From a virus, in IMG/VR virus record IMGVR_UViG_3300050138_000417, positions 1 to 46,610 of that record: 46,610 nt of DNA. One strand, given 5' to 3'. The notes beneath the pieces are model-generated. The model searched no databases. It was not told the origin of the DNA and was given only the letters and a program-made list of their open reading frames with translations. Within the stretch, counting starts at the first letter, position 1. Every line of letters starts with the position of its first letter. Shown here one piece after another: positions 7,697 to 24,867 of the stretch. A program made the translations under genes and the position numbers.

Positions 7697-8581
7697 TTAC
7701 TGCCGGAAGTTGACGCCCATCTCCTTCGCACGGGTCACGGCGAAGTCGAGGCGATCATCCAGCGATTTGAACGACGCGGGTCGCGCGGTTTGCGTGACCT
7801 GGGACCGGCCCTGCGAGGAGGGCACGGCGCGCGTTCGTGTTGAGGTGTGCGCGGCGGCGGTCCGACGCGCGGGAGCGATGAAGTCGTCCGTGTACTCTTT
7901 CACGAACTCGTCGAGGAGCTTGGCGTCGCCATCCTCGTACCGGGAGATGGTCTTGGACTGTCCCTCGGTTTCGATTTCGGCCGTCGCCCGCGACTTGATC
8001 CACGCGGAGAATTGCGTCCGCATGGCGGTCGTCTGCCGCGGCGTCAGTTCGTCCATGTTCATCGCCTCGGCAATCTTGTCGCCGATGTAGGCGACCTGTT
8101 CATTGCCGTGACGCTGCCACTGACGCAGTTCCGCCTGGGTCGCGGCCTCGGCGTGATCGGGTACGGCCAGGAGGCGATCCACCTGTTCGTCCGTCAGCGC
8201 CGAAAACTTCCGCATGATGCCCATGCCGGGAAGATTGAAAAAGGCTTCGCGAATCGCTTCGGCTTTCTTCGAGTCGGGATCGGGCGTTTGAGTACCGGCC
8301 AGCGCCGCAATCTTGCGATCACGTTCGACGATGTCAGCTTCGAGCTGCTTCGCACGCTGAGCCTGTGTCGAGACTTCATTGAACCGATGCCGTGGAATCC
8401 AGTCTGTCCGATCTTCTTTGTAGGTGTAGCCTGTTGCACCGGATTGCGCGCCGGGTGTCGCGGGCGCTACGCCTGCGGAAGTACCTGCTGGAGTCTGTGT
8501 ACCGGATGCGCCTGCGCCCGCCTGTGACCCGTCACCGGAAGCGGTGCCTGCGCCTTGCTGTGTCGTCTGTTCGTCTGCCAT
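7697..8581 (-). CDS. Capsid scaffolding protein
   Basis: 294 residues. The first 50 are Gly/Ala/Thr/Gln low complexity; the centre (70-190) is charged and helical (VSTQAQRAKQLEADIVERDRK...); the C terminus is basic and ends DFAVTRAKEMGVNF. This acidic-helical design and the position immediately before the major capsid gene are typical of phage scaffolds that guide prohead assembly and leave before DNA packaging. A promoter (8637-8666) and a leader hairpin (8598-8613) precede it, fitting high expression together with the capsid gene. Confidence 0.85.
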   Translation of the reverse strand: MADEQTTQQGAGTASGDGSQAGAGASGTQTPAGTSAGVAPATPGAQSGATGYTYKEDRTDWIPRHRFNEVSTQAQRAKQLEADIVERDRKIAALAGTQTPDPDSKKAEAIREAFFNLPGMGIMRKFSALTDEQVDRLLAVPDHAEAATQAELRQWQRHGNEQVAYIGDKIAEAMNMDELTPRQTTAMRTQFSAWIKSRATAEIETEGQSKTISRYEDGDAKLLDEFVKEYTDDFIAPARRTAAAHTSTRTRAVPSSQGRSQVTQTARPASFKSLDDRLDFAVTRAKEMGVNFRQ

Positions 8582-9166: not shown

Positions 9167-11688
9167 TACGACTGTCCTTGATCGCCACCGATCGGATGCT
9201 GCGTTAGGTACGTTTTCGCGCGCGCGAGCCGCGCTTCGTTGATGGCGGCCGGACCTTGTGCGGCCGGACCGGCGGCGTTGGGTGCCGCGGGGCTGCTTTG
9301 CGCCTGACCAACCCCTGGACTGGTCGCGTTCCGATTCGAGTTACCGGCGGCTTGGGCTGCGCCGTGTGCCCCTTGTGCTTCAGGCGGTCCACCGGACGGC
9401 TGAGCAGGCGGCGCGCCGTTCGCGGGCGCCGTCGTGTTGATCATGACGCCGTTGGCGTCAAGAATGCCCATCGACACCTGTGCGATCGCCAGATCGATAT
9501 GCGTGAGGTACGCATCGACCATCTGCATCGCCGCGGGATATTGCGCGAACACTTTGCGCCCGCGATCCGAGAGACACCACTTGATGAGTTCGTTGCGGTG
9601 AATCTGCGGGTTGTACCACCGCCGGTAGATCAACGGCCCGACCTGCGGCATCGGTTGGCCAGTCTGCTGCGACTGCAACGCGGCCTGCTGCGCCTGCATT
9701 TGCATTTGCTGCATAATTTGCGGATTCGCCAACACTTTCTCGAACGCATCCATGTTCATCCAGGCTTCTTGCACCTGGGCGTCGATGGCCGGCATCAAGC
9801 GTTCCTCGCCGAACTTCCGCAGAATTTCCATCTTCTGATCGGGGTCGGACGGATCGATGAGCCCCAAGGTCGCGAGATGATCGATCGCCGCGCGCTCCAT
9901 CAAGGCCGTCTTCGCGGTGATCGTGCCGTCCTCGATGATGATCTCGATGCTGCCCGAGAGATCGGCCTTCTTGAACGTGTCGAACGCCCAACCCTTCGAC
10001 GGCGTCAGTACCGAGCGCAGCCGCGTCTCGTCGCCGAACTCGCGTTCGATTTCGAGGGCGTCGCCATACCATCCTTTGTACACTTCCGCGCGCGACTTGA
10101 ACGCGGACGCGTGTCGGCCGGTCGCCCGTTCGTACAGGAAAGACATCGCCGCGTAGGCTTCGGTGCCGCTTGGCTTTTCGCCCTTCATGATGTCAAACGT
10201 GCCCATCAGCTCTTCGGCTTCCTGCTTCACGAGCGCGCGATACATGAAGACCGATTGATTGACGCCCTCGCCGGGAATGCGCTCGGGTTTCGCGTTACCG
10301 CCCGCGACCAACGGATTCCACTTCACGACCAATCCCGGCTCGCCGGTGAACTTCTCGACCTCGGCGCCCTTCGGCTCCAACCACACGGGATTCGCCATGC
10401 GGCCAATGGTCATCATGATGTGCGAGTCGAGTTGATTGAGCTGATCCTGTTTCTGAATCGCCGGATCGATGAGCCCCGAGCCCATGACACGTCCGCCGAC
10501 GTGCTCATAGCGGCCGTGATGAAACGTGAACAAGGGGTCGCCTTTGGCGTTGTGGTACGGCAGCGGGCCAGGCAACGCTTCGGCATCCGAGTGAATGACG
10601 ACCGGATTGCCGTCACCCGCGATGCGAATGACTTGCCCCTCGGGGAAGTCGGCGCACGGCTTCACCCAGAAGTCGTACTCGACGATGCCTTCGCTGTCGG
10701 TGTTCGCGCCGCCCGACGCGAAGTACGGCGGGGCAATGCCGATGTCGCCTTGGAATGGCAACGTCTTGAAAATCTGCATCGTCCGCTCTTGTGGCGTCTT
10801 CGTGAAGGAGAGTGACTTATTGTAGCCACCCGCGATCATATCGTCCGACTGCTCGTAGTACTCCTTCATCCGCCAGCGCATCCGAATGCTGTACGGCGCG
10901 TCGTCGTACTGGTCGTACATCAGCGGGAACGCGATCTCGAACGGGGACAGCGCCATCGTCGCGCCCTTCGGCAGCGGGATGGTATCGACCATCGGCGAGC
11001 CGTCAGGGTTGGTCGCCGGCATGAACGATGTGCTGCCACAGCTCGGACACTTCTGTCCGGCGTTCGCGATGTCCACTTCCGAGAAGGTCTGCTGACACTG
11101 AGTACACGTTTCGTGTTTGACCTGTGTCGTGCCGTTCTTCAGATCCTTGTTGACGTACGTGTGCAACCACGCGTTGCCAGTCACGAGCAACCAGAAATCG
11201 AACTCGTTCATGACGTGCGTCATGTTGTGCGACTGGTACAAGATCGGTCCGTAATCATCCGCGACACCCGCGGTCACAACACTTTCGTTGTCCTCGCCCA
11301 AGGGTCGCGCGCTCGCGCCGTAATTAATGCTGGCAAAGTTCGCGCGGATGGACTGAATGCCCTCTTTGCACACGTTCGTGACCGGACGGGGAATCCACTT
11401 CGCGAGTCGTTTGTCTTGCCAAGCGCCACGTTTGGAATCGTAGTAGATCCACTGCCGATTCAAGATATACCAGATGTTCCGCATCCACTGGCGCTCGAAA
11501 ATCCACCGCTGGTCAAAGGACTCCTTTTTCCAGTCCTTGCACTTGTCGAGCAACTGTTGATCGGACCATGTCTTTGGCCCGCCGATGTTGCCGAGCATCG
11601 ACGATTGTCCAGGCTGCTGGCCGTCGCCGGGCTGAATCGATGATGTGCTGCCCGCGCCGAGCGCCGTCAAATTGGGTGTGAGTGCCAT
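9166..11688 (-). CDS. Portal protein with zinc-ribbon insert
   Basis: 840 residues, at the long end for portals, consistent with a P22-like long-barrel form. The N-terminal 100 residues are typical (WKKESFDQRWIFERQWMRNI, LNRQWIYYD). A C4 zinc ribbon (C195, C198, C214, C217) is inserted in the wing region. The core includes GYNKSLSFTKTPQERTMQ, and the stem/clip is followed by a Gln/Ala-rich barrel helix (about 655-680). The last 90 residues are Pro/Ala/Gln low complexity. The portal dodecamer is the DNA entry pore and connects to the tail; its place next to the terminase confirms the call. Confidence 0.92.
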   Translation of the reverse strand: MALTPNLTALGAGSTSSIQPGDGQQPGQSSMLGNIGGPKTWSDQQLLDKCKDWKKESFDQRWIFERQWMRNIWYILNRQWIYYDSKRGAWQDKRLAKWIPRPVTNVCKEGIQSIRANFASINYGASARPLGEDNESVVTAGVADDYGPILYQSHNMTHVMNEFDFWLLVTGNAWLHTYVNKDLKNGTTQVKHETCTQCQQTFSEVDIANAGQKCPSCGSTSFMPATNPDGSPMVDTIPLPKGATMALSPFEIAFPLMYDQYDDAPYSIRMRWRMKEYYEQSDDMIAGGYNKSLSFTKTPQERTMQIFKTLPFQGDIGIAPPYFASGGANTDSEGIVEYDFWVKPCADFPEGQVIRIAGDGNPVVIHSDAEALPGPLPYHNAKGDPLFTFHHGRYEHVGGRVMGSGLIDPAIQKQDQLNQLDSHIMMTIGRMANPVWLEPKGAEVEKFTGEPGLVVKWNPLVAGGNAKPERIPGEGVNQSVFMYRALVKQEAEELMGTFDIMKGEKPSGTEAYAAMSFLYERATGRHASAFKSRAEVYKGWYGDALEIEREFGDETRLRSVLTPSKGWAFDTFKKADLSGSIEIIIEDGTITAKTALMERAAIDHLATLGLIDPSDPDQKMEILRKFGEERLMPAIDAQVQEAWMNMDAFEKVLANPQIMQQMQMQAQQAALQSQQTGQPMPQVGPLIYRRWYNPQIHRNELIKWCLSDRGRKVFAQYPAAMQMVDAYLTHIDLAIAQVSMGILDANGVMINTTAPANGAPPAQPSGGPPEAQGAHGAAQAAGNSNRNATSPGVGQAQSSPAAPNAAGPAAQGPAAINEARLARAKTYLTQHPIGGDQGQS

Positions 11689-12091: not shown

Positions 12092-13663
12092 TTATCCGTA
12101 GAAACTGTCGAAGCTCGATCCCGCTTCGGTCATGTCGTTGCCGTACATATCGCCGAGTGGATAGTCAGGCGCACTGGGTTGCAAGTCGCGTTCGTTCCCG
12201 CGATTGCCAAACTTCTGCATGCGCTCGATCTCGAACCGCGTCTGATTGTCGAGACTCCGCAAGTCACGTCCGGCGACCAATTCAATCGGCTTCGGGAGTG
12301 ACGGCCACGTCATCAACGCGTAGCGCACGCAGTCGGGCAGCTCGTCTTCCTTCTTGAAGACGTGCTCCTTGTCCTTCTTCTGGCCGTCCGACATTTTGTT
12401 GTCGGCGAAGCGGTACTTCTTCATCTGCTCGTAGAGCCGCGGACACGTGTACGCAATCTTGTACTGCTTCGTGTAGAGCCACGACATCACGCGCTGGATG
12501 CCGGCCATCTGATCGTTCTCGGCAGGGGCCACGAGGACGCCGTGTGCGTTGAATTCCAAACGGAGCTGCGCTTCGTTGCGATTGGCGGTCCAGAGGACTT
12601 CGCGCACGTTCAGCGCCGTCGCGAATGTTTGTCGAATCGTCAGGAGATGCTGCGAAAAGGATCGCTGGCGTTCGAGATAGTCGTTGACGGCGACTATGCC
12701 TTTGTCCGTGACCACATGTGCCACGCTCCCGAACGGATGGTCAGCTCCAGAATCGAGACCCACAATGACGCGACGCGACGGATCGATCGCAGGCCACTCA
12801 GGAATCCAATCTCGTACTGCGGATTCGTCGGCCAGGACGGCATCTTCGATCCACTCGCCATACACGCTCCCCGTGAAGTTCTGCCGCTCGCCCAGATACT
12901 CCTGCGCGAACAACTGCGGCGGCATCGTCTGCCGCGCTTCTTCGATTTCCCCGGCGCGGAAGGTCGCCATGTACGGGTTGTCGATCGTGCGCCAACGCGC
13001 CGCCCAGAAGCCCGGCTTTTTGTCGATGAGCGCCGGCTTCTCGATACGTTCGTACGTCCAGTCAAAACCATCAACGGAACTTGTGAAGAAACACACGCCG
13101 CCGTGGTCCGTCAGCGACGGTCGGAAATAGTCCCACGCGAGTTCGTCGATGAAGGCGGCCTCGTCCATCCACGCCCAGTGCGGACCGACGCCGCAATGCG
13201 CGCGATCCGGATCGTCGAGGGACCGGAACATCACCTGCGCGCCGTTGATCAGCGTCAACGTCTCGTCTTCGGCGTTCCAGTCGGCGCACCAGTGCCGCGG
13301 AATCAGTTTCAGCAACGTGGGCATCGTCGCGTCGTGCAGAATCTTGTAGGTCGGCCCCATCACCCAGCCAAGGGTATTGGGCACCATCATTTCTTCGCGC
13401 GCGCCCCAAGCACCGACAACGCTTTTTCCGCCACGGCGACCAGCAAACGCCCCCAGGCGGCGATACACGCGCGGCGCCAGGAGCGTATCTTCTTTGCCGC
13501 AGGATGGGCAGCGGAATAATCCATCGGAGCCACAAAATCCGATCTTCTGGCAGCACGTCGCAAACCGCATCCGCCGCGCCCGCAGAAATTCAATTTGATA
13601 CGGGTTGTAAAGAAGCGCCTTCCCTACATCCAACCCGACATTGGGCGGCAATCGCTTTGACAT
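12092..13663 (-). CDS. terL: Large terminase subunit
   Basis: 523 residues, with a P-loop ATPase and a nuclease domain. Walker A is GRRGGKS (75-81); Walker B is WMDEAA with D167/E168; a coupling-motif-like FTSS follows. The RNase H-like nuclease starts at VIVGLDSGADH (first acidic residue of the catalytic cluster), and EDELPDCVRYALMTW gives the last conserved Asp. The N terminus carries a Cys-rich segment (C37, C38, C44, C52, C55) with RCPSCGKED, a zinc ribbon not typical of minimal terminases. It pumps DNA into the prohead through the portal and cuts concatemers. The stop of the RapZ-like gene abuts its ATG. Confidence 0.95.
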   Translation of the reverse strand: MSKRLPPNVGLDVGKALLYNPYQIEFLRARRMRFATCCQKIGFCGSDGLFRCPSCGKEDTLLAPRVYRRLGAFAGRRGGKSVVGAWGAREEMMVPNTLGWVMGPTYKILHDATMPTLLKLIPRHWCADWNAEDETLTLINGAQVMFRSLDDPDRAHCGVGPHWAWMDEAAFIDELAWDYFRPSLTDHGGVCFFTSSVDGFDWTYERIEKPALIDKKPGFWAARWRTIDNPYMATFRAGEIEEARQTMPPQLFAQEYLGERQNFTGSVYGEWIEDAVLADESAVRDWIPEWPAIDPSRRVIVGLDSGADHPFGSVAHVVTDKGIVAVNDYLERQRSFSQHLLTIRQTFATALNVREVLWTANRNEAQLRLEFNAHGVLVAPAENDQMAGIQRVMSWLYTKQYKIAYTCPRLYEQMKKYRFADNKMSDGQKKDKEHVFKKEDELPDCVRYALMTWPSLPKPIELVAGRDLRSLDNQTRFEIERMQKFGNRGNERDLQPSAPDYPLGDMYGNDMTEAGSSFDSFYG

Positions 13664-14353: not shown

Positions 14354-14938
14354 TTACTCCTCGGTCTCGATAATTTCCGCGTCGAGCGGAATGTCCATGC
14401 CGCGGACGCCGCCAGCCGTACCGGGCCGGATGATGATGGGCGATCCGCCGTGCGGCGTGGGCGGCATCTCGACCTGCACACGCAGCGACATGCCGACGCT
14501 GAGATTCTGATCGCCCTTGATGACCTGATGCTGCTTGAAGATGCCGAAGCCTTTCGCGGCCTCAACCGTCACGTCCTTGTCGCGCTCGTCGAGAAATTCG
14601 TTGACGTTCCGGACCACCTTGTCCTTCAGGACGATGTCGATCTTGTCTTCCACGTCGGGCAGCGAGTTGATGTTCAGCCAGCCGCGCGCGTGGGCGCGTT
14701 TCAGGTACGTGCGAATGGTCTCTTTCGAGTACCCGACCGTGGCCGCGATGTCGTCCGCCGACACGCCTTGCGCGCGGAGGGCAATAACCGCGATGCAGGT
14801 TTTGTAGACGATGGAGTTGTCGGGCGGTTTTACAAACGGAGCCGTGACCGGACCGTCATGACCGTCGCCTCGCGACGCCTGCACAGGCGCAGCGGACCCG
14901 CCGGAGGATGGAACGGGGGCAGACGGTTCAGTGGACAT
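14354..14938 (-). CDS. terS: Small terminase subunit-like HTH protein
   Basis: 194 residues. Residues about 50-88 form a helix-turn-helix (IALRAQGVSADDIAATVGYS, then KETIRTYLKRAHARG) as in small terminases that recognise phage DNA. Next comes a helical oligomerisation-like part (VEDKIDIVLKDKVVRNVNEF) and a C-terminal beta segment with IIIRPGTAGG. The first 35 residues are Pro/Ser-rich and disordered. It is first in the leftward operon, behind its own promoter, and in the order TerS-TerL-portal. An alternative is a transcription regulator, less likely given the context. Confidence 0.8.
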   Translation of the reverse strand: MSTEPSAPVPSSGGSAAPVQASRGDGHDGPVTAPFVKPPDNSIVYKTCIAVIALRAQGVSADDIAATVGYSKETIRTYLKRAHARGWLNINSLPDVEDKIDIVLKDKVVRNVNEFLDERDKDVTVEAAKGFGIFKQHQVIKGDQNLSVGMSLRVQVEMPPTPHGGSPIIIRPGTAGGVRGMDIPLDAEIIETEE

Positions 14939-14994: not shown

Positions 14995-15371
14995 GACACA
15001 TGCCCGGAAAGAATACAATCTGGCGCCAAAATAACCCCGCCAAAGCACAGCTCCAGCGAGATCGAGAACGTGAACGCCGCAAAGACGGACGACCGCGAGA
15101 ATGTCAAATTAGGCATCTTTATGGTATTTCTCTAGAAACACATAATAGACTTCTGCGCGAACAAGAAAACAAATGCGGGTGCTGTGGCGACGAATTCACA
15201 AAAACTCCCAACGTTGATCACGATCACAAAACACAAGCGATTCGTGGCCTTCTTTGCTCTAGCTGTAATAGCGGACTTGGTATGTTCAAGGACAATCCTT
15301 CGCGACTCCAAAAAGCCATCACATACTTACAAAAAGCCCGTCCATTCATCCCCTACAGCCGATCCTACTAA
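14988..15371 (+). CDS. Recombination endonuclease VII family protein
   Basis: 127 residues. The signature is intact: LYGISLETHNRLLREQENKC, then CGCCG, VDHDHKTQAIRGLLCSSCN and SGLGMFKDNPSRLQKAITYL. The Cys pairs hold zinc and the DHDH is the catalytic His-Me finger core. T4 endonuclease VII resolves Holliday junctions and branched DNA before packaging; small free-standing members may also act as homing enzymes. I chose the ATG at 14988, with AGGA upstream; an open frame extends to 14931 but would cross the divergent promoter. Confidence 0.88.
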   Translation: MSRHMPGKNTIWRQNNPAKAQLQRDRERERRKDGRPRECQIRHLYGISLETHNRLLREQENKCGCCGDEFTKTPNVDHDHKTQAIRGLLCSSCNSGLGMFKDNPSRLQKAITYLQKARPFIPYSRSY

Positions 15372-15407
15372 CGGGCATTTGGTACGACATTTGCAAGGGC
15401 GAGCGAG

Positions 15408-15629
15408 ATGGACCCAAAGCCAGCCGAACCACTTGACGACTTTTTGCTGCGACAGCAACAGCGATTTCGTCATACCCTCCAGTTCGGCGAACAACGCGTA
15501 CGCGACCGCAAAGCGGATTTGGAACAATTCGACATCGAAGTCCGAAAGCAACCCGGCACACAAACGTGCTTGTCTCACCAAATTACAGGATGGCATCGTG
15601 ACCACGACTCCAACCGCTACAACGACTGA
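15408..15629 (+). CDS. Hypothetical small protein
   Basis: 73 residues, charged and helical (PLDDFLLRQQQRFRHTLQFG, EQRVRDRKADLEQFD). A purine-rich stretch precedes the ATG. The end overlaps the next gene by 32 nt. No family recognised; moderately likely to be real. Confidence 0.5.
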   Translation: MDPKPAEPLDDFLLRQQQRFRHTLQFGEQRVRDRKADLEQFDIEVRKQPGTQTCLSHQITGWHRDHDSNRYND

Positions 15630-15897
15630 TCTCAAGGCGATCCGGCACGAGGAAGTGGAACGCGCGGCGGCGGAAATGTTGGCGAAGGGTAAGACGCCCG
15701 CGGAAGTCCGCCGTTTGTTCAGTCAGTACGGCGTGCGGTGGGAGTACCAGTTCAAGGGTCAGGGGCGTCGGGAACGGATAAAGCGACTCCGGAAGCAGGG
15801 CCGGACGTTGTGCCGCTGCGGCCTGGAGAGTTACGACGGGAACGATCCGGAGGGACTCGGGCCGGCCTGCCTCGAAAAGAAGTGGAGCGCCTCGTGA
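15598..15897 (+). CDS. Small Cys-containing early protein
   Basis: 99 residues from a GTG with AGGATG upstream. Residues about 23-42 form a helical, HTH-like unit (AAAEMLAKGKTPAEVRRLFS, then QYGVRWEYQ), followed by basic RRERIKRLRKQGR and CRCGLESYDGNDPEGLGPAC. The C-terminal Cys pattern (CRCG ... GPAC) suggests a metal site, and the first part a nucleic-acid-binding element. The function is unknown. A longer open frame reaches back to 15184 but overlaps two genes. Confidence 0.65.
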   Translation: MTTTPTATTTDLKAIRHEEVERAAAEMLAKGKTPAEVRRLFSQYGVRWEYQFKGQGRRERIKRLRKQGRTLCRCGLESYDGNDPEGLGPACLEKKWSAS

Positions 15898-16268: not shown

Positions 16269-16348
16269 CCGAACGTCGCTCCTTCCTGTAACAGACTCCT
16301 CGTACAGTACGACTAGGGGCAGCGCGCCGCCGGACGGCGTACGCCCGC

Positions 16349-16966
16349 AACCACACTCATTTCTTCTCTTTAGTAGTAGCAGACCACACACAAAGGCGTA
16401 ATGCCTACTATATCAGTGTGGTTACATAGACTTACACAGAAGAGATAGACACCAACATCAACATACACAGACACTTACAGAACCACACAAATAAACACAT
16501 TTGTGTGCTTAGAAATGTGTGTGGTTGCCATTTCCTTCAGTAATTCGCGCCGAGGGCTGCACACGCCTTCTCTCTGCCATACAAAATCGAGATCAACAAA
16601 ACCGCATTTCGATGGCTGTAAGTGAAGGGTCACCACACACATATGCAAAAGTGTGAGTGTGGTTGGAGTGGTCGAGGGGTACTGATACAAGTGTCCTTGA
16701 TACAAGTGTCCCGGTACTAGTACCTGTGCCCCAGGACATTTGTGACGCTGGCCCCCGCCTGCCGTACTAACGAATCGTCCGCAAGTCGCTGTATCGACTA
16801 GGCTTACCTCAGAAAAAATTTCGCTCAGTGTCCGTCGCCTGCCTACCGCCCCCGGCTGCCGGCGCGGCAAGCCTGCCTGCCGTCCGCCATGCATGTACAT
16901 TTGAATGAATGAATGATGAACAGCGACACACGACCATTTACCACACTGATAAACAGGCAACCACAC
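16349..16966. repeat. AACCACAC box array, cluster 1
   Basis: Plus-strand copies start at 16349, 16382 (GACCACAC), 16481, 16631 (CACCACAC), 16939 (TACCACAC) and 16959; minus-strand copies (GTGTGGTT) start at 16416, 16519 and 16657. The extended consensus is AACCACAC followed by TC, TG or AC and then AT. The copies at 16511-16528 and 16957-16974 share 18 identical bases in opposite orientation. Confidence 0.85.
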
Positions 16967-17138
16967 ACATTTCCATTTGCCAGGCAATCGCGCGAGGTGA
17001 CGGTGCTGCGGCCTGTTCGAGCTGCCGTATGGTCGGCTTGGGGACATTTGTATCGGGTACTGATACAGACGGCCGGCCGTGAGGTACTAGTACTGGTACG
17101 CAGTCGGGTGACAGCGGGTACTAGTACGCTGATACAGG
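16677..17138. repeat. TGATACA and GGTACTAGTAC repeat set
   Basis: TGATACAAGTGTCC occurs twice in tandem (16683-16696, 16698-16711). The perfect palindrome GGTACTAGTACC is at 16713-16724, and GGTACTAGTAC recurs at 17083-17093 and 17117-17127. GGGTACTGATACA is identical at 16677-16689 and 17055-17067, the latter facing TGTATC (17049-17054). Another TGATACAGG lies at 17130-17138. Confidence 0.85.
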
Positions 17139-17172
17139 CGTACCCGGCACATTTATTGCTGTGTAAGGCTAA

Positions 17173-17478
17173 ATGCTTGCCGCTGCGTTATTCGAGAAGA
17201 TTTGCCCTATCTGCCTACACCACTACAAGAAACGTCCAGCCCACGATCACAACCATACAACTGGCCTGTATCGAGGTTTCATCTGTCGGAGCTGCAATCG
17301 CGGTCTCGCGTTCTTCGGTGAAAGCCAAACACAACTATTAAATGCTGCAAACGTGGCTCTCATAGGCCATAAGTACCGAGGACAAGGGTACTTCGTCGAT
17401 TTGGGCGCGCTCAGTCGAGCGGCCTCCTACCTCATTGATGACAATTTCGGATACAACATAGACGACTGTTCTATTTAG
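17173..17478 (+). CDS. Second endonuclease VII-like protein
   Basis: 101 residues. CPICLHHYKKRPAHDHNHTT and GLYRGFICRSCNRGLAFFGE show the zinc Cys pairs and the His-Me finger (HDHNH) of the endonuclease VII family. It lacks the YGIS...NRLL leader helix seen in the 14988-15371 protein and has an unrelated C-terminal 45 residues (VDLGALSRAASYLIDDNFGY). It is flanked on both sides by repeat boxes, so it may be a mobile HNH gene placed in the control region. The start follows AAGG; other starts are possible. Confidence 0.8.
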   Translation: MLAAALFEKICPICLHHYKKRPAHDHNHTTGLYRGFICRSCNRGLAFFGESQTQLLNAANVALIGHKYRGQGYFVDLGALSRAASYLIDDNFGYNIDDCSI

Positions 17479-17504
17479 GTACGCCGAGAAGTACATCGAT
17501 TCTC

Positions 17505-17532
17505 GATACAAGACACGTCCAACATTTGTATC
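17505..17532. repeat. GATACAA/TTGTATC inverted pair
   Basis: GATACAA (17505-17511) and TTGTATC (17526-17532) face each other across 14 nt, and the left half continues ...GACACGTCC, similar to the TGATACAAGTGTCC repeats of the control region. It sits in the 126-nt gap before the small-gene block. Confidence 0.6.
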
Positions 17533-17604
17533 AAGGTCCGGCGGCCGAATGTCTAGCGTTTTGATATGTCAGAGCTTGGTATGTCGTTTGCTTAATACCT
17601 GAGC

Positions 17605-17811
17605 ATGACGACTATCACAAAGCCTCTCATCTTTCGCAAAACCTTTTACTACCGCACGTACGACGACGCGCGCGTAATGCTGGCCAGACTTGTAACAGAC
17701 AATCCGAATGCTCGAATTGTCGAGTATGGGCGAGGGTTCGCCATTCAACAGGAACGCTCCGGAAAGTACTGGGGCGAGGGACGGTCGTTTGGTACGACCG
17801 CGTGGAGCTGA
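17605..17811 (+). CDS. Small conserved phage protein (IVEYGRGFAIQ type)
   Basis: 68 residues with RTYDDARVMLARLVTDNPNA, then RIVEYGRGFAIQQERSGKYW. I have seen short proteins with this IVEYGRG.AIQ...G.YW core in other phages; the function is unknown. The ribosome site is poor, which is unusual for this block. It is the first gene of the small-gene block after the repeat region. Confidence 0.7.
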   Translation: MTTITKPLIFRKTFYYRTYDDARVMLARLVTDNPNARIVEYGRGFAIQQERSGKYWGEGRSFGTTAWS

Positions 17812-17813
17812 GC

Positions 17814-17900
17814 ATGAGACGTCATCTCCGTACCTTCATCGGCCAATCGCTCGTTCGTACATGCGATTGGCTACTGGCCCGAATCGAATTGAGGAGCTGA
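17814..17900 (+). CDS. 28-residue leader-type ORF
   Basis: A 28-residue frame (MRRHLRTFIGQSLVRTCDW...) starts 2 nt after the preceding stop and ends in GAGGAGCTGA, which supplies the ribosome site of the next gene. It may be a coupling leader peptide or chance. It is basic and helical. Confidence 0.35.
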   Translation: MRRHLRTFIGQSLVRTCDWLLARIELRS

Positions 17901-17905
17901 ACATC

Positions 17906-18130
17906 ATGAGAACCGATGCCACGATTGACGGTCGGCAAGTACACGTCCCGAATGCGTCACACCTGGGATACGACAAATGGGTGGCGCAAGTAGGCGATTG
18001 GGTTGTTTGGTCGTACGAGCCCGGTACGGGCGATTGTATCGGCCGTATGATCGGCCGTGTTCACTACGCGCCACCGTGCGGAGAAACGCCAGCGATCAAA
18101 GACTACATCGAAGTGTTACAGCTTTCGTGA
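17906..18130 (+). CDS. Small early protein, unknown
   Basis: 74 residues (MRTDATIDGRQVHVPNASHL...). The core DWVVWSYEPGTGDCIGRMIG looks like a small SH3-type beta barrel. GAGGAG precedes the ATG. Part of the small-gene block; function not recognised. Confidence 0.7.
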   Translation: MRTDATIDGRQVHVPNASHLGYDKWVAQVGDWVVWSYEPGTGDCIGRMIGRVHYAPPCGETPAIKDYIEVLQLS

Positions 18131-18151
18131 ACAAATAGAGGAGAAACGTAC

Positions 18152-18427
18152 ATGAGAACCATCATTCGTAACAGTTTTGCTCGGCAGTCGATTCTATCGG
18201 AACGTGTTCGTACAAACGCCACGTATCCGCCAGTGCAGAAGGATTGCACCGAATGCGGCAACGTTCGACGTACGCCAAAAGGCGAAACGTGGCTGTACCG
18301 CTTTCATGTAGACGACGATCAAGGCAGTCGGCACAGCGGACCGATCGCCGGCGGGAAGTTGTTTTGCTCGCGGAACTGCGCCGAGTCGTACACCGGACAG
18401 TCATTCGATGAAACGAGGAGATCATGA
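18152..18427 (+). CDS. Small zinc-finger-like early protein
   Basis: 91 residues. CTECG (32-36) and FCSRNCAESY (71-80) give a C2...C2 zinc site around a beta core (GETWLYRFHVDD). Related short Cys proteins occur in small-gene blocks of other phages. GAGGAG lies 10 nt before the ATG, and the gene's end overlaps the next start by 4 nt (ATGA). Confidence 0.75.
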   Translation: MRTIIRNSFARQSILSERVRTNATYPPVQKDCTECGNVRRTPKGETWLYRFHVDDDQGSRHSGPIAGGKLFCSRNCAESYTGQSFDETRRS

Positions 18428-18777
18428 GCACACCAAACGTACGATCGCTCGCTGACTTCAAACGGTTCCTAGCACTCCCAGGCGCAACAGTACAGGTCAT
18501 TCGCAATGATTGGAGCGATCCGACCAAGACGATCCATCCGATCGTGCCGAAGGCAGGATACTGGGACACGAAGCAAGTACAGAAGCTTCAATCGAACACG
18601 GTACAGTTTACGTCCGGTAGTTGGTTGACGTTTCCGAAGGCATCACACGCGAAGTTTGACGACGATACCGTGTCGTTGTGTATGCAACAGGATGGCACGT
18701 TTTCACAGCTCCTCGTGTACAGGTTGTCACTCGTTGATCTGACGCCGGCCGCCGATACGCTTACGGGAGGATGGTAG
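18424..18777 (+). CDS. Conserved small phage protein, unknown
   Basis: 117 residues. The first 40 (LADFKRFLALPGATVQVIRN) resemble a motif seen in phage hypothetical proteins in which a short helix is followed by a beta strand. GSWLTFPKASHAKFDDDTVS forms the central part. No enzyme motif. The start overlaps the previous stop. Confidence 0.7.
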   Translation: MSTPNVRSLADFKRFLALPGATVQVIRNDWSDPTKTIHPIVPKAGYWDTKQVQKLQSNTVQFTSGSWLTFPKASHAKFDDDTVSLCMQQDGTFSQLLVYRLSLVDLTPAADTLTGGW

Positions 18778-18781
18778 CATC

Positions 18782-19156
18782 ATGAGGTACAACGACTGCG
18801 ATACGTTTACGCGCGCCTACATCGACTGCGCGCTGTGGTCGTCAACCGATGAAAGTACGCCTCAGGGTGGCGAACCGTTTGACGCAAACTACACCGGCAC
18901 CGATCTGCCGGCAGAGACAATCGAGCGCATGGCGGCCGACTGCGCGCGGTTTCAGGAAGTCCACGCGGACGATCTGAGCCTTGCGCGAAGTGCCGACTAT
19001 AACGGCCACGATTTTTGGTTGACGCGAAACGGCCACGGCGCGGGATTTTGGGATCGTGGCCTGGGCGAAGTGGGCGAACGTCTGAGCCTTGCCGCGCGCG
19101 CCTTTGGAGAATCGAATCTGTACATTGGCGACGATGGCAGGATCTACGTATCGTAA
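18782..19156 (+). CDS. Conserved phage protein (YIDCALWSSTDE type)
   Basis: 124 residues of a family very common in tailed phages: FTRAYIDCALWSSTDE near the N terminus, then a helical part, and the near-invariant GHDFWLTRNGHGAGFWDRGL (about 77-96) followed by EVGERLSLAARAFGE and YIGDDGRIYV. Function unknown; the conserved His, Trp and Arg suggest ligand binding. The ATG follows GGGAGGATGGTAGC. Confidence 0.85.
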   Translation: MRYNDCDTFTRAYIDCALWSSTDESTPQGGEPFDANYTGTDLPAETIERMAADCARFQEVHADDLSLARSADYNGHDFWLTRNGHGAGFWDRGLGEVGERLSLAARAFGESNLYIGDDGRIYVS

Positions 19157-19188
19157 ACACCGATCGAAAACATAGCAGAGGAGCATTT

Positions 19189-19587
19189 ATGGCCAAACGT
19201 GAATCCCGCGATCTGTACGATCAGCAAAACCGACTCATGGCGATCGGCATCTCGCGCGAGGACACTGAAGCATTGCGCCGGATCAGTATGACCTTGCGCC
19301 GATGGTTCGAGCACGAGTGCGGCACGGATAACGGCTGTATCGAGCGCGACGAAACGACCAACAAAGCGTACTGGCTCAATTCGATCAGCATGCGCCGTAC
19401 GCCCATTGCGGACCGCGAGACCGGCGCCAGAAAACGACTCGCGCGGATCATGGCGCAGTACCCAACATTGATCGCGTACGTGCAAGGCGACTGTCGTGGG
19501 TGCGCGCTGTACGTGCTCACGGCGGACCAGCTCGACTCGAAGGATTCCATTGACAGCATTTATACGCGCGGCATTGCCGTAGCGTAG
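19189..19587 (+). CDS. Conserved small-block protein, unknown
   Basis: 132 residues. A helical N terminus (DLYDQQNRLMAIGISREDTE, ALRRISMTLRRWFEHECGTD) is followed by a beta region with the ending LIAYVQGDCRGCALYVL. I recognise the general pattern from other phage genomes where it lies next to the YIDCALWSS gene. AGAGGAG and CATTTATG mark the start; a longer open frame to 19015 has no ribosome site. Confidence 0.75.
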   Translation: MAKRESRDLYDQQNRLMAIGISREDTEALRRISMTLRRWFEHECGTDNGCIERDETTNKAYWLNSISMRRTPIADRETGARKRLARIMAQYPTLIAYVQGDCRGCALYVLTADQLDSKDSIDSIYTRGIAVA

Positions 19588-19596
19588 GAGGACAAC

Positions 19597-19836
19597 GTGC
19601 GATATTTACAGCTAGACAGAGACGCGCCGCCTGTACCAAACGGCTTACGGCCGCGCATTGGTGTCGAGTACGGTTGCGGCGCAAAAGACTGCCGCGCGTG
19701 TTACGAAGTCATTCCGCCGCACCATTTGCGCACGGCAGACTTTGTACCGGATGTACGGGCGCGCGCGGAGGAACGCGATCGATCGGACAATGATGACGCC
19801 GAACCGCGCGACGATGAGATCGGCGACGGGCTCTAA
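19597..19836 (+). CDS. Small Cys-containing early protein
   Basis: 79 residues from a GTG with AGGAGGA upstream. EYGCGAKDCRACYEV (29-43) has four Cys-type ligands; the C-terminal 25 residues are acidic (RSDNDDAEPRDDEIGD), a possible DNA mimic tail. Function unknown. Confidence 0.6.
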   Translation: MRYLQLDRDAPPVPNGLRPRIGVEYGCGAKDCRACYEVIPPHHLRTADFVPDVRARAEERDRSDNDDAEPRDDEIGDGL

Positions 19837-19875
19837 CGGCTACGGGGGCATAGTACGCCCCAGGAGGAAACGATC

Positions 19876-20058
19876 ATGACGTTGTACTGTATCCGCGTCC
19901 GCTTGCACGTCTCCGGCGTCGAAAAGACGATCCGGTGTACGACCATGACGGAACGCGCGTTGGTCGGCATCGCGGTGGGCGAGCACGCGGACATTGTGCG
20001 GGAGTTCGAGATCGATTCGGACGTAACCGGCTTGAAGGAAGGGTACAGTACCGATTGA
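19876..20058 (+). CDS. Hypothetical 60-residue protein
   Basis: 60 residues with AGGAGG before the ATG. It is a small alpha/beta protein with LHVSGVEKTIRCTTMTERAL and an acidic C terminus. No family recognised. Confidence 0.6.
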   Translation: MTLYCIRVRLHVSGVEKTIRCTTMTERALVGIAVGEHADIVREFEIDSDVTGLKEGYSTD

Positions 20059-20131
20059 CCCTTTGGCACGCATTTTGCCGCGATCGAAGGTATAGCAGCG
20101 AGTAAACACATTTATCCGGGAGGACACATTT

Positions 20132-20668
20132 ATGACAACCGAAGAACTACAACAGAAGCTCGACGAAATGGACGATGGCGTACTGCGCTCAGGCGCGCAT
20201 CCGGCCGGCGGACGCGTGTTCTGCGCGCTCGAATTCAAATCACAAGTAGACGGCATTCCATGGATAGACAACCCAACGAAAACCGGCATGCCAGATCTAC
20301 GGCCGTTGAACGATACGTACTGGCCCTCCGACAAGGCGCGGACGGACGCATTGCTGCCGGTGTTAGCGGCATTGTGGGACTACGCCAAATGGTCGGACGC
20401 GCGGAAAGCGCGATGGTTAGAGATCGTCTTAGTCAAAACGACGAACCGCTGGATCGTGACGCTGCCGTGGTTTGTGCAACACCCGCAGCCAGGACAAGCG
20501 ATGATCCGAACAAAGGCGGATGTTGTAGCGTGGGCAGCGTGGGCAGCGGAGGCAGCGGAGGCAGCGGGGGCAGTGTGGGCAGCGAAGGCAGCGGAGAAAG
20601 CGGAGGCAGTTTTGCCAGAAGTCTGCAAGTTGTGGATTCGGGCGGCCGAAGAAACGGAGGGATTGTAA
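20132..20668 (+). CDS. Protein with C-terminal AAW/AAE/AAK triplet repeat
   Basis: 178 residues. The first 120 look globular (GGRVFCALEFKSQVDGIPW, WDYAKWSDARKARWLEI). Residues about 132-158 are a run of Ala-Ala-X triplets with X = Trp, Glu or Lys (AWAAWAAEAAEAAG...). The DNA there is a degenerate 9-bp tandem repeat (GCAGCGGAG-like, 20526-20617). Such a run should form one amphipathic helix and is prone to slippage. GGAGG and CATTTATG mark the start; a tandem copy of ACACATTTAT lies 17 nt further upstream. Confidence 0.7.
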   Translation: MTTEELQQKLDEMDDGVLRSGAHPAGGRVFCALEFKSQVDGIPWIDNPTKTGMPDLRPLNDTYWPSDKARTDALLPVLAALWDYAKWSDARKARWLEIVLVKTTNRWIVTLPWFVQHPQPGQAMIRTKADVVAWAAWAAEAAEAAGAVWAAKAAEKAEAVLPEVCKLWIRAAEETEGL

Positions 20669-20895
20669 TGAGTATCAAAGACCGCGGATTTGCAAGCATG
20701 GACAAGGCGAAGCAGCACGCGATCGCCACGAAAGGCGGCAAGGCGGCACACAAGGCCGGCACGGCGCACACCTGGTCAAGTGCGGAGGCGCGGGAGGCCG
20801 GCAGGAAGGGCGGCCTGGCATCGCGAGGGGGTAAGGGCAAGTTAGATGGGGTGGTCGTCACCATGGGCACGCCAGGAGGCGCCGATGTCCTCTAA
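20668..20895 (+). CDS. KGG-repeat stress-type protein
   Basis: 75 residues. KDRGFASMDKAKQHAIATKG and GKAAHKAGTAHTW, then SAEAREAGRKGGLASRGGKG, match the KGG domain of the con-10/GsiB-like general stress proteins (RGFASMD...IASKGG.AAH..G.AH.....EAREAGRKGG). In bacteria these small hydrophilic proteins protect against desiccation or stress. The role in a phage is not known. The ATG overlaps the upstream TAA (TAATG). Confidence 0.8.
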   Translation: MSIKDRGFASMDKAKQHAIATKGGKAAHKAGTAHTWSSAEAREAGRKGGLASRGGKGKLDGVVVTMGTPGGADVL

Positions 20896-21175
20896 GCGCG
20901 CATCTGAGCGCATCGCACACAACGATACGTGGTTAGTTCGTGTGGGATTGAAACGCGCACGGTACGTGGTATCTGGACAATACGCCGAGGACATCAAGCC
21001 TCCTGTCTGTCGGCCAGGGTACGACAAGCCGCTCCCCGACTACTCCGCGCGTCTCGCGCGCCGTACGGGAACCTCTGTATCAGCCGTCATCGCGCGTCTT
21101 GATACAGATGTACAACCACACTCATTACGAGATGGGTGTGTGGTGGAGTCAAGTCACTGTGAGTACGACAGTTAA
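20885..21175 (+). CDS. Hypothetical early protein reading into repeat cluster 2
   Basis: 96 residues from the ATG at 20885, with CAGGAGG upstream; a longer frame to 20846 lacks a site. The N-terminal half is basic (KRASERIAHNDTWLVRVGLK); the second half (SARLARRTGTSVSAVIARLD) looks like a short HTH. The last 30 codons run across the TGATACA and AACCACAC boxes of cluster 2, so regulatory DNA overlaps coding DNA. Confidence 0.6.
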   Translation: MSSKRASERIAHNDTWLVRVGLKRARYVVSGQYAEDIKPPVCRPGYDKPLPDYSARLARRTGTSVSAVIARLDTDVQPHSLRDGCVVESSHCEYDS

Positions 21176-21256
21176 GGGTCAACCACACTGATTTAGAGGT
21201 GCCGGTACGCCTTTCGGTGTGGACTGCTAGTACTAAAGAATAGGTGTGGTGTGGTT
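21077..21256. repeat. Second repeat cluster (AACCACAC, TGATACA boxes)
   Basis: TGTATCA (21077-21083) faces TTGATACA (21099-21106). AACCACAC copies start at 21114 and 21181; GTGTGGTG or GTGTGGTT copies start at 21138, 21244 and 21249. Flanks are conserved with cluster 1: AACCACACTCATT at 16349 and 21114, ACCACACTGAT at 16940 and 21182. CTAGTACT (21227-21234) resembles the ACTAGTAC core. Confidence 0.8.
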
Positions 21257-21284
21257 AGCTCAGCAAGGCGTACGAAGGTATAGT
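21255..21284 (+). promoter_or_regulatory. Putative promoter overlapping AACCACAC boxes
   Basis: TTAGCT (21255-21260), 18-nt spacer, TATAGT (21279-21284), 23 nt before the gene at 21308. The -35 overlaps the GTGTGGTT box 21249-21256, so those boxes could be operators. CGAAGGTATAG also occurs in the gap before the 20132 gene. Confidence 0.5.
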
Positions 21285-21307
21285 ACGTAGTTTTCTAGGA
21301 GGAAAAC

Positions 21308-21703
21308 ATGACAAGTCGTGAATCGTTCATTCAGGGATTGTTGGACGCGGCGAGCTTCTTTCAGACGAACCCCGAGATCGCTACACCGTCGTCGCTGATT
21401 ATTAATCAGTGGGTCGAATCAAAAGACGCGATGGCGGTGTACGCGCGCGTGGCGGGCGGTTGGCAAAAGGAGTACTGGGATACCAATTTCGCTTTGCGTC
21501 GGGTGTTCTCAGGCGGCGTGGTGTTCGACGTGAACATCCAGCGCGATCAGGTATGCAAGCAAGTCGTGACCGGCAAGAAGGTTATCCCGGCCGAGCCCGC
21601 GAAACTCATCCCCGCATCGCCCGAGCGCGAAGTGGACGTAACAGAGTGGGTGTGCGACGAAGGATCGTTGCTCGCGCCGGAGCCGGCCGCTACGGGGGCA
21701 TAG
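21308..21703 (+). CDS. Conserved phage protein (VCKQVVTGKKVIPAEP type)
   Basis: 131 residues. RESFIQGLLDAASFFQTNPE and the C-terminal part VCKQVVTGKKVIPAEPAKLI ... VTEWVCDEGSLLA are a pattern shared by many actinophage and proteobacterial phage small early proteins; the function is unknown. It is preceded by a promoter candidate, AGGAGG and a good ATG. It starts the second early transcription unit. Confidence 0.8.
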   Translation: MTSRESFIQGLLDAASFFQTNPEIATPSSLIINQWVESKDAMAVYARVAGGWQKEYWDTNFALRRVFSGGVVFDVNIQRDQVCKQVVTGKKVIPAEPAKLIPASPEREVDVTEWVCDEGSLLAPEPAATGA

Positions 21704-21711
21704 CAGGGAAC

Positions 21712-22104
21712 ATGTGGTACGGGTCTTGCACCGGGCAAGACTCGTCCCTCCAAATGTTCACCTACGAACACTTACTGGCGCAACAACCGCCGTCCGATAG
21801 CTCGGGCAACCGGGCCGCGGCAGCAGCATTTGTGGTAATCCTGACGACGGCACTGGAAGGCACAAATGTTGGTGCCGGATTGTCGGCCGCGCAAAAGAAC
21901 TACCTGTACCGCCTGCGCGCGACCTGGGCGAAGCGGGCGGCCGGCACGGATCTCCGCTGGAATGTCGCCGGCTCGCGGCCGGGGCGTCCGAAGAAAGGGA
22001 CAGGCGGGCCGAAACAGCGCAAGCCCGATCCCGGCGAAGCGACGCCGCTGTTCCAATCGCTGATGCGGAAGTACGGCGGACGACCGACAGGAGACCCTGA
22101 ATGA
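21712..22104 (+). CDS. Hypothetical protein upstream of RHH-like gene
   Basis: 130 residues. The middle is helical (AAAAAFVVILTTALEGTNVG, LSAAQKNYLYRLRATWAKRA); residues about 85-115 are basic, Gly/Pro-rich (GSRPGRPKKGTGGPKQRKPD). It may be a DNA-binding accessory. The ATG at 21712 follows AGGGA; the stop overlaps the next start by 4 nt. Confidence 0.65.
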   Translation: MWYGSCTGQDSSLQMFTYEHLLAQQPPSDSSGNRAAAAAFVVILTTALEGTNVGAGLSAAQKNYLYRLRATWAKRAAGTDLRWNVAGSRPGRPKKGTGGPKQRKPDPGEATPLFQSLMRKYGGRPTGDPE

Positions 22105-22622
22105 GTTGGCATGAGTACCGCGGGAAGCATGACCCCGCAAATTTCACGGTACCACCCGAACTCGAAAAGGGCCGGTCGATGAAAATCCAAGCGTGGATTC
22201 AATCGCACCACTATCGACTGTTGAACGAAATTGCGCGCACGGGACACTTTCCGTTTAGTGAACGCACAGATGTCGTTCGGTGGTGCATCATGTTCGGCTT
22301 GCAGTACTTGGATACGCTGGAACCGGGCACGACGCGCTCGATCATGTCGCAGGCGAACATCATCAATCGACGCCTGCAACAGCAGATTCACGACGCGACG
22401 TTCATCAAGACGCTGACGAATTTGCGGCAAGTGGTGCAGGACGCCAAAGGGCGGGGCGATGAAGATGCGGCGCGCGAGGAGATTCAGCAAGCGTGCTATG
22501 ACATCAGCCGCATGCCCGAGGAACCGGACCGCACGTTGCGGTGGAAGTTGAAGTACATCGATGCGATGCGGACGGAGTTTCGTGATTATTTGCCGGACGG
22601 CTGGACAGGGAGCGCACAATGA
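22101..22622 (+). CDS. Ribbon-helix-helix-like early protein
   Basis: 173 residues. Residues about 25-70 (SMKIQAWIQSHHYRLLNEIA ... TDVVRWCIMFGLQYLDTL) fit a ribbon-helix-helix DNA-binding unit with a strand and two helices. The rest is helical (ANIINRRLQQQIHDATFIKT, REEIQQACYDISR). It is a candidate early regulator that might read the repeat boxes (inference). ATGA overlaps on both sides tie it to its neighbours. Confidence 0.7.
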   Translation: MSWHEYRGKHDPANFTVPPELEKGRSMKIQAWIQSHHYRLLNEIARTGHFPFSERTDVVRWCIMFGLQYLDTLEPGTTRSIMSQANIINRRLQQQIHDATFIKTLTNLRQVVQDAKGRGDEDAAREEIQQACYDISRMPEEPDRTLRWKLKYIDAMRTEFRDYLPDGWTGSAQ

Positions 22623-23218
22623 TATTTGAACCTTTTCAGAAGATTGCCCGCTTGAAGCGCGAGTGCATGATCAGCGAGAAAATCGACGGCACAAACGCGC
22701 AGATTCAGATCGTGCCACTGGCGCTTGTCGGCGTGGATCTCGTCGGCAACTGGGAAGCCTTGACGGTTGCGCGCAACGAGACGCATGTGATGTTCGCGGG
22801 TTCACGGTCGCGGTATATCACGGCGCAGGACGACAACTACGGCTTTGCAAAGTGGGTTGTCGCACACGCGGACGAACTGTGGACGCTTGGCGATGGTCGG
22901 CATTACGGCGAATGGTGGGGACTCGGCATTCAACGCGGCTACGGCCAAACCGAAAAGCGGTTCAGTCTGTTCAATGCATGGCGCTGGAATGACGAGAATC
23001 CGAATCGACCGGCGTGTGTCGGCGTTGTGCCGAATCTCTATACCGGACCATTCTCGACTGACGCCACGAGCGCGCAACTGGAACGTCTGCGGACGCTTGG
23101 ATCGGTCGCGGCTCCAGGCTACATGAAAGCCGAAGGGATCGTGATTTACTTGTCGGCCGCGCGCACCTACTTCAAGCAGACGCTTGAAAAGGATGACGAA
23201 CCGAAATCGCGCGCATGA
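22619..23218 (+). CDS. RNA ligase (DRB0094-like nucleotidyltransferase fold)
   Basis: 199 residues. Nucleotidyltransferase motifs in order: I, EKIDGTNA with the adenylated Lys K21; Ia, GSRSR (61-65); III, YGEWWG (96-101); IV, AEGIVIY (171-177); V, YFKQTLE with K186. It should seal RNA ends with ATP through a Lys-AMP intermediate. Phage RNA ligases often repair tRNAs cut by host anticodon nucleases. No partner kinase/phosphatase is seen. It overlaps the helicase gene by 4 nt. Confidence 0.88.
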   Translation: MIFEPFQKIARLKRECMISEKIDGTNAQIQIVPLALVGVDLVGNWEALTVARNETHVMFAGSRSRYITAQDDNYGFAKWVVAHADELWTLGDGRHYGEWWGLGIQRGYGQTEKRFSLFNAWRWNDENPNRPACVGVVPNLYTGPFSTDATSAQLERLRTLGSVAAPGYMKAEGIVIYLSAARTYFKQTLEKDDEPKSRA

Positions 23219-24867
23219 AGACCAAACATCCGCCGTTGCCGCCGCCGTGCGACTTGGGCTTCGCGCCGAAATTTGCGTCCTGGCACGATGCACAAGTCGA
23301 GGCCATCGATCGCGTCGTCTTTTCTGATAAACGGTTCTACGGTTTGAACATTCCGACTGGCGGCGGCAAATCAGGAGCGGGCTTAGGCATCGCCCTTTTA
23401 CACCCAAAGGTGAAACGTGCGCTTTATCTTACAAGTACCAAAGGACTCGAAGATCAGCTTGCCGTGGACGGCGCGCCCCTTGGCCTCCTTGACGTACGCG
23501 GTCAGAGAAACTATCCGTGCCGCGCACTTGAACCGGGAGGACAGCTTGATCGTTATCGCCGTGGACGGTTTGCGCCCACATGCGACGAGGGTCCGTGTCA
23601 TTCGGGACTCCGCTGTACCCTCGCCCCGAACCGGAAGGAACCCAATATCCGGCCGGATTGTGCGTACTACGGCGCTGTCTGGGACGCGCGGGGTGCCCAA
23701 CTGGTCAGTACCAACTACGCCATGTATCTCACCAGTGCTGCCTACGCTGAAGGACTGGGAGACTTTGATCTCCTCATTCTCGACGAAGCTCACGATACCG
23801 ACAAGGAACTCGAAGCATTTCTCACACTCGAAATCACGGGCGACGACTGCCGGCTCGTCGGCTCGAAGTTCCTCAAAGGCGTCGAAGACCTCCACACGTG
23901 GAAAGACTGGGCGACCCATCACCGCGGGCCGCTCGCGTCGAAGCTCGAACAACTCGAACTGATGCCGCCGCAGACACCCGAGGAGGCCGCCGATCGGCGG
24001 AAGCTCAAAACGGTGTTCGCGCGGCTTGACCAGTTGAGCAAGATTGACGCACTCGACTGGATTCTCGATAGCAATGGCACGGTCGCGAAATTCGCCCCGC
24101 GGCGTGTCGCGAAGTACGCCGAGGAGTTCTTGTTTCGCGGCATCCCGCATGTCGTCCTGATGTCCGCCACGCTCACACGCAAGACCATGAACGACCTGGG
24201 CATCGACAAGGCGCAGTACGACTACTGGGAATGCCCCTCGTCGTTCGATGTCCGTCGTCGCCCCATTTACAGCGTGAACACCATTCCGACGTGCCGGGTG
24301 AACTACACGATGTCGAAGGATGATAAGTACACGTGGCTGCGACGGATCGATCGTATCATCGAGACGCGGCGCGAGCTGGGCTGGAAGGGCATCATTCACA
24401 CGGTCAGCTATCAGCGGATGCGGGATCTTGTCGCCGACAGTGAACACAAGGATTTGTTCGTGATCCACGACTCGGCCGGGACGAAGGAAGCCGTCAAGGT
24501 GTTCAAAGAAGCGGACGGTCCGCGCATCCTCGTGTCCCCTTCAATGGTCACGGGGTACGATTTTGCCTACGATCAGTGTCAGTACCAAATAATTGCAAAG
24601 GTTCCTTTTCCGGACATGTCGTCCGCTATCATGAAAGTCCGCAAAGAATACGATAAGGACTACGGCAATCATCTGACGATGCAAAAGCTCATTCAGGCGT
24701 GCGGCCGAGGTATGCGCGCGGCTGACGATTTTTGCGAAGTGATGATCGTGGATGATCATTTCGAGTGGTTCTTCTCGTGGATGCGGAAGCACGGGTGTCC
24801 GAAGTGGTTCGTAGATGCGGTCGAATACGTCGATTCGATTCCCGAACCATTGCTGGTTGATTTCTAG
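23215..24867 (+). CDS. DinG/XPD-like SF2 helicase with Fe-S-type cysteines
   Basis: 550 residues. Walker A is PTGGGKS (47-53); Walker B is ILDEAHD (188-194); MSATLT marks motif III; VSPSMVTGYDFAYDQ and QACGRGMRAADD are motifs V and VI. Between Walker A and B lie five Cys (102, 123, 128, 134, 149), the place where XPD/DinG helicases hold a 4Fe-4S cluster. These enzymes unwind DNA 5'-3' or resolve R-loops. No DnaB-type helicase is found, so this may be the main phage helicase. It forms one coupled unit with the RNA ligase. Confidence 0.9.
   Translation: MKTKHPPLPPPCDLGFAPKFASWHDAQVEAIDRVVFSDKRFYGLNIPTGGGKSGAGLGIALLHPKVKRALYLTSTKGLEDQLAVDGAPLGLLDVRGQRNYPCRALEPGGQLDRYRRGRFAPTCDEGPCHSGLRCTLAPNRKEPNIRPDCAYYGAVWDARGAQLVSTNYAMYLTSAAYAEGLGDFDLLILDEAHDTDKELEAFLTLEITGDDCRLVGSKFLKGVEDLHTWKDWATHHRGPLASKLEQLELMPPQTPEEAADRRKLKTVFARLDQLSKIDALDWILDSNGTVAKFAPRRVAKYAEEFLFRGIPHVVLMSATLTRKTMNDLGIDKAQYDYWECPSSFDVRRRPIYSVNTIPTCRVNYTMSKDDKYTWLRRIDRIIETRRELGWKGIIHTVSYQRMRDLVADSEHKDLFVIHDSAGTKEAVKVFKEADGPRILVSPSMVTGYDFAYDQCQYQIIAKVPFPDMSSAIMKVRKEYDKDYGNHLTMQKLIQACGRGMRAADDFCEVMIVDDHFEWFFSWMRKHGCPKWFVDAVEYVDSIPEPLLVDF

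Follow-up and report, generated by a model that had tools for sequence, protein, structure and literature searches.

The DNA analysed here, called the window throughout, is the full 46,610 nt of IMG/VR virus record IMGVR_UViG_3300050138_000417. A 566-codon open frame spans both of its ends, which makes the map circular or circularly permuted, and its genes are podovirus-like (portal, large terminase subunit TerL, PolA-type polymerase, SF2 helicase, RNA ligase and endonuclease VII). Between the terminase genes and a block of small genes lies an intergenic region, the hub, which holds a first array of short repeats; a second array is found beyond the block, upstream of an operon encoding an RHH-like protein, the RNA ligase and the helicase. 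The present report concerns these two arrays and their possible function. Coordinates are collected in Table 1.

Box counts were compared with those of 500 dinucleotide shuffles of the same stretches. The hub contains nine ACCACAC boxes for 0.38 expected, four TGATACA (0.12 expected) and three GTACTAGTAC (0.00 expected), and the 412-bp intergenic region 20896-21307 contains five ACCACAC (0.14 expected) and two TGATACA (0.06 expected); none of the 500 shuffles reached as high a count in any of these cases. The remaining genome was at background (ACCACAC, 4 for 5.2 expected; TGATACA, 2 for 1.8), and the strongest local clusters that an unbiased k-mer scan gave for the whole genome were those of CACACA and ACCACAC at about 16350. 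Array 1 has ACCACAC at 16350+, 16383+, 16416-, 16482+, 16519-, 16632+, 16657-, 16940+ and 16960+, and array 2 at 21115+, 21138-, 21182+, 21244- and 21249-, with CCACAC at 21217-. A first-pass annotation of this DNA had given the same counts and coordinates for the two arrays, and was also right about the flank AACCACACTCATT, exact at 16349 and 21114 with no other copy in the genome, and about GGGTACTGATACA, repeated exactly at 16677 and 17055. Its claim that three families are common to both arrays was correct for ACCACAC and TGATACA. The full GTACTAGTAC palindrome is confined to the vicinity of array 1 (16714, 17084 and 17118), and array 2 holds only a half palindrome, CTAGTAC at 21227.

The GTAC core is not array-specific, since it is over-represented throughout the window genome, with 254 copies outside the block for 79 expected and, against a trinucleotide model, a z of 7.1. 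Among the other records, a GTAC excess was also present in L014, G004, G001 and L026, and not in MW202554, MW202795, L052 and L018; the window encodes a DNA methyltransferase at 30784-31557. GC content is 36-44% at 16350-16549, for 59% in the genome, and positions 16430-16500 of array 1 are A- and C-rich and G-poor (A 0.52, G 0.04 at 16450-16499). We rejected ACCACAC as a divergent DnaA box, as it differs in sequence and the core of such boxes, TTWTNCACA, does not occur. A comparison with Rfam gave no relevant match.

The two arrays share a composite element (CE) of about 75 bp, in inverted orientation, which the first-pass annotation had overlooked. Each copy presents AACCACAC, AGTANTAGCAGWCCACAC and ATCAGTGTGGTT in this order. 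Alignment of the whole of CE1 with CE2 gave a score of 81, for a shuffle maximum of 35, and the core, compared in opposite orientation, has 30 matching bases out of 34 (88%), whereas 500 shuffles reached at most 25.

Table 1. Features of the hub, the second array and their surroundings in the window
Feature	Position	Strand	Remarks
Large terminase subunit TerL	12092..13663	-	phrog_2, 1.1e-33
HTH protein, probable small terminase subunit TerS	14354..14938	-	homologs upstream of TerL, HTH
Conserved gene between TerS and hub	15184..15897	+	homologs L014:2494-2850 and G004 (26.7%, 38.7%)
Intergenic hub holding array 1	16269..17172		904 bp
Array 1, nine ACCACAC boxes in mixed orientation	16349..16966
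CE1: AACCACAC ... TTTAGTAGTAGCAGACCACAC ... ATCAGTGTGGTT	16349..16423	+
GGGTACTGATACA, TGATACAAGTGTCC and GGTACTAGTACC boxes	16677..16723	+
Presumptive packaging site: A-tract element (GAAAAAATTTCG) with GC-rich box, reading toward TerS	16812..16880	-
Second cluster of GATACA and GTACTAGTAC boxes	17049..17143	+
Bracketed block, some ten small genes, the first of them endonuclease VII-like	17173..20667	+	no homologs in matching block of L014 or G004
KGG-motif protein, right-hand conserved anchor of block	20668..20895	+	PF10685, 2.8e-09; homolog L014:6690-6941
Inverted TGTATCA/TGATACA pair	21076..21107
Array 2, five ACCACAC and one CCACAC	21114..21256
CE2, inverted relative to CE1	21181..21256	-	alignment score; equivalents in G004 and L014:7764-7816
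First gene after CE2, no assigned function	21308..21703	+
Conserved small protein	21754..22104	+	start set by L014 and L015 homologs; 41-43% identity
RHH-like candidate DNA-binding protein	22101..22622	+	homologs in seven other phages
SF2 DNA helicase	23215..24867	+	phrog_2488, 1.2e-69

Searches for near relatives of the window in the phage collection, and for a prophage relative in genome contigs, found none, and the RHH-like, DNA polymerase and portal proteins, each used as a lone query against viral contigs, gave 0 relatives. Relatives were recovered among viral contigs when the helicase and TerL alignments were used as queries. The helicase alignment led to L013/L014 (identical over the compared stretch) and L015/G004, with helicases 60% identical to that of the window, and wider relatives, including L026, L030, L036, L038 and L052, were found via TerL. 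L014 is contiguous; the assembly named G4 is reverse-complemented L022 (the left end of G004) joined to L015, its circular closure being assumed, and has the same layout as L014.

An inverted CE pair was present in G4 (11553-11599 + and 16638-16685 -; score 65, shuffle maximum 42), where window CE1 found a match with a score of 43 for a maximum of 33 (0 of 300 shuffles). The CE1 match in L014, whose boxes read ACCATACTGATTTT, is less secure, 12 of 300 shuffles being as good; a second L014 copy, at 7764-7816 (-), matches both G4 copies (0 of 300 shuffles). In the window, G4 and L014 alike, the second copy lies directly upstream of the RHH-like/helicase operon: in the window 52 bp separate the end of CE2 from the first gene, and the equivalents of CE2 are about 25 bp or less from the next gene in L014 and G004. 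Conservation of the boxes, a point raised by the first-pass annotation, was observed only in part, as the exact AACCACAC string is not kept in the two nearest relatives, whereas the variant ACCATAC and the box GTACTGAT are. Most copies of the latter fall in the hubs (5 of 7 in L014 and 6 of 9 in G4). Within a genome the two CE copies have a box spelling in common, ACCACAC in the window and ACCATAC in G004, as expected if a single protein reads both. A search for the exact CE core across viral contigs found no other carrier; the inverted pair was unsupported in G001, L018 and L026, and the signal in L021 is GC-rich and not CE-like.

The block bracketed by the two CE copies was then compared. 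In L014 and G4 the same interval carries a different gene set, common to both and on the - strand, which includes a 381-codon gene 63% identical between these two; no homolog of the window block genes preceding the KGG gene was found in it. The flanks are conserved, with TerS and the (+) gene on the left, and the KGG protein, the RHH-like protein and the helicase on the right. Non-homology of a block within conserved flanks is, on this gene comparison, evolutionary exchange, and to this extent the swappable cassette suggested in the first-pass annotation keeps some support. That the inverted CE pair is itself a device inverting or swapping the block, as its replacement on the opposite strand between conserved genes could suggest, is nevertheless very improbable. 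Pfam and PHROG matches of the proteins searched near the arrays, which did not include every open reading frame, contained no recombinase; the CE copies, 88% identical over 34 nt, are too imperfect for the near-identical inverted repeats of an invertible segment; and CE2 is placed to the right of the KGG gene, and so not at the exact edge of the exchanged block. Two other repeats were noticed in this region. Direct repeats of CGGTTAGACG precede the KGG gene in L014 (6592-6632) and occur in the hub-to-KGG region of G004, and are absent from the window, and imperfect GCAGCGGAG repeats at 20530-20620 of the window, in gene 20132-20668, encode an alanine/glutamate-rich stretch.

With a (+) gene on its left and a (-) block on its right, the hub of L014 and G4 sits between convergent genes and no gene reads out of it, so that a promoter-operator role of CE1 is unlikely there, and a role at the DNA level fits better. 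This bears directly on the main rival to a replication origin, also foreseen in the first-pass annotation, which is that boxes and CE serve transcription only, as operators of a phage regulator for the early operons, before the block and before the replication operon. Both window arrays are indeed directly upstream of (+) operons, CE2 or its equivalent precedes the replication operon in three phages, and the perfect palindromes of the hubs would suit dimeric regulators. However, the CE1 hub of L014 and G004 precedes no gene, some 900 bp of packed boxes is more than an operator alone would explain, and no sigma-70-like promoter was found, although this consensus may not be that of the host. A constant promoter spacing from the GTGTGGTT boxes, sought by eye, was not seen either. 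We therefore consider a purely transcriptional function somewhat unlikely.

As to the protein that would bind the boxes, the RHH-like protein is a natural candidate because its gene precedes that of the helicase in all eight phages aligned.

A second element of the hub, the A-tract, appears to belong to packaging. Of 22 records searched, 12 have a TerS-like homolog upstream of TerL; an alignment comprises 17 members, two of which match phrog_7067 'terminase small subunit', weakly. The HTH is modelled with a pLDDT of about 90 and the remainder with low values; the protein is probably TerS, an identity drawn mainly from position and HTH. Upstream of the TerS-like gene and on the same strand, GAAAAA(A)TT(T) followed by a GC-rich stretch was present in 10 of 11 TerS phages, for 1.02 expected from shuffles, in a sample that is partly post hoc, some of these phages being those in which the motif had first been noticed. 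The strict pattern missed a variant in G4, GAAAAAATCG. Several of the A-tract phages, some of whose records are fragments, lack detectable relatives of the window helicase and polymerase and yet have TerS, which indicates that the element follows packaging and not replication; we take it for the presumptive packaging site, and dropped the idea of an origin unwinding element, given that the A-tract accompanies TerS and not the replication genes. When GAAAAAATTTTCGTG, the word of the A-tract, was used for a reverse search, 46 stretches came back; most belonged to AT-rich phages that lack this TerS, and the only fits were TerS phages already known. The small terminase of phage HK97 has its binding site, which includes an A-tract, at 15-29 bp from the cos cut (PMC11331095). 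One could extend this to the whole hub and see in the array boxes small-terminase binding sites flanking a cos or pac cut at the A-tract, all the more as TerS divergence parallels that of the arrays. We find this extension quite unlikely, for CE2 and array 2, more than 4 kb away and before the replication operon, are not explained by packaging, and the boxes spread over 600 bp on both sides of the A-tract. Separately, the small protein encoded upstream of TerL at 13664-13918 matches the RapZ C-terminal domain (PF22740, 1e-10).

In more distant phages the hub position is again occupied by repeats, of other sequence. TerL relatives have unrelated arrays there, made of GTACAGTACCCAC (L026), AGGTTGAGTGTCC (L030), CAACAGTT (L036), CAAGCGCTTG (L038) or ATATAGTAATA (L052, which shares the TerL/TerS type); the G4 (G004) hub has GAAACTGTACAGTTTC and that of G001 has CGGTACC. 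Beside the latter array (L003:3191-3250), a 53-bp stretch holds the DnaA-like boxes TTATCCACA, TTTTCCACA and TTATCAACA, and a cluster of DnaA boxes occurs at the hub position of MW202795. In L052, the ATATAGTAATA array is a dense, iteron-like series of direct repeats (14520-14640, reverse complement), where ACTATAT, present 7 times, is among the strongest repeat clusters of the locus.

Taken together, a position kept despite diverging boxes, convergent flanks, DnaA boxes in two relatives and a CE at the replication operon fit an origin with an autoregulating initiator. Our tentative conclusion, which we hold at somewhat below an even chance, is that the hub is a DNA-transaction site, most likely a replication origin beside a packaging site in a circularly mapping podophage. 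A phage-encoded DNA-binding protein, probably from the RHH-like/helicase operon, would bind the hub boxes and start replication; the same protein would bind CE2 and regulate its own operon, in the manner of iteron-type initiators; and separately, terminase would recognise or cut DNA at the A-tract. The cumulative GC skew, mentioned in the first-pass annotation as a check of the origin, has its minimum at 17704, in agreement with this, near where two gene arms diverge to meet near 37.4 kb.

Several observations weigh against an origin. GC skew follows gene orientation, and so cannot separate replication from transcription. Hub-position arrays are also found in phages that lack the helicase and polymerase of the window, and the CE pair is known from three phages only, the G004 bracket depending on circular closure of the contig. 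No initiator was identified, the RHH fold of the candidate being confirmed neither by profile nor by a low-confidence model. Fold searches with the models of this protein and of TerS yielded nothing informative. DnaA boxes were looked for within the window and none was found. Finally, the boxes are short and mostly inverted, and a consistent helical phasing, looked for among their spacings of 20 to 113 bp (1.9, 2.2, 2.4, 3.1, 3.5, 4.2, 5.9, 6.3 and 10.8 helical turns), was not found. Lambda-type inverted iterons need not obey the phasing rule of plasmids, so this failure counts against plasmid-type iterons only. The origin with iterons put forward in the first-pass annotation keeps some support, from the conserved position, the convergent genes and the DnaA boxes of two distant relatives.

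A broader proposal, which we regard as unlikely, is that origin, packaging site and autoregulatory twin element form one widespread podophage module, with the boxes of the twin concerted within genomes and divergent between them, and the twins bracketing a region of block exchange. If the reading of the hub as an origin beside a packaging site is right, it would offer a handle, from sequence only, on the start of replication and packaging in a large group of uncultured podophages, and a natural series of protein-DNA co-evolution in which site and operon are constant and box spelling varies. The twin element also leads to a testable prediction, that one protein binds both copies in each phage and not the copies of its relatives.

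Among known systems, multi-site phage operators such as the stoperators of mycobacteriophage L5 are repeated short asymmetric boxes in intergenic regions. The window differs by its two dense clusters and composite element, without genome-wide spread, and no repressor was found. The cos/pac sites of lambda, HK97 and SPP1 resemble the A-tract with its GC-rich neighbour, which lies upstream of the TerS-like gene and is conserved with it, TerS identity being mainly positional; the distance from A-tract to TerS, however, ranges between 0.4 and 4.4 kb, and the arrays are left unexplained. Iteron origins with an autoregulated initiator (lambda ori, plasmids P1, F and R6K) differ in that the boxes of the window are short, mostly inverted and unphased, with no confident AT-rich DNA unwinding element, a candidate initiator, and a second array on the far side of a gene block, 4.2 kb away. 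They are alike in their repeated boxes, well above chance in the window arrays, clustered and replicon-specific, keeping their position while their sequence diverges, in the related box element at the promoter of the replication operon, and in the DnaA boxes present at the site in two relatives.

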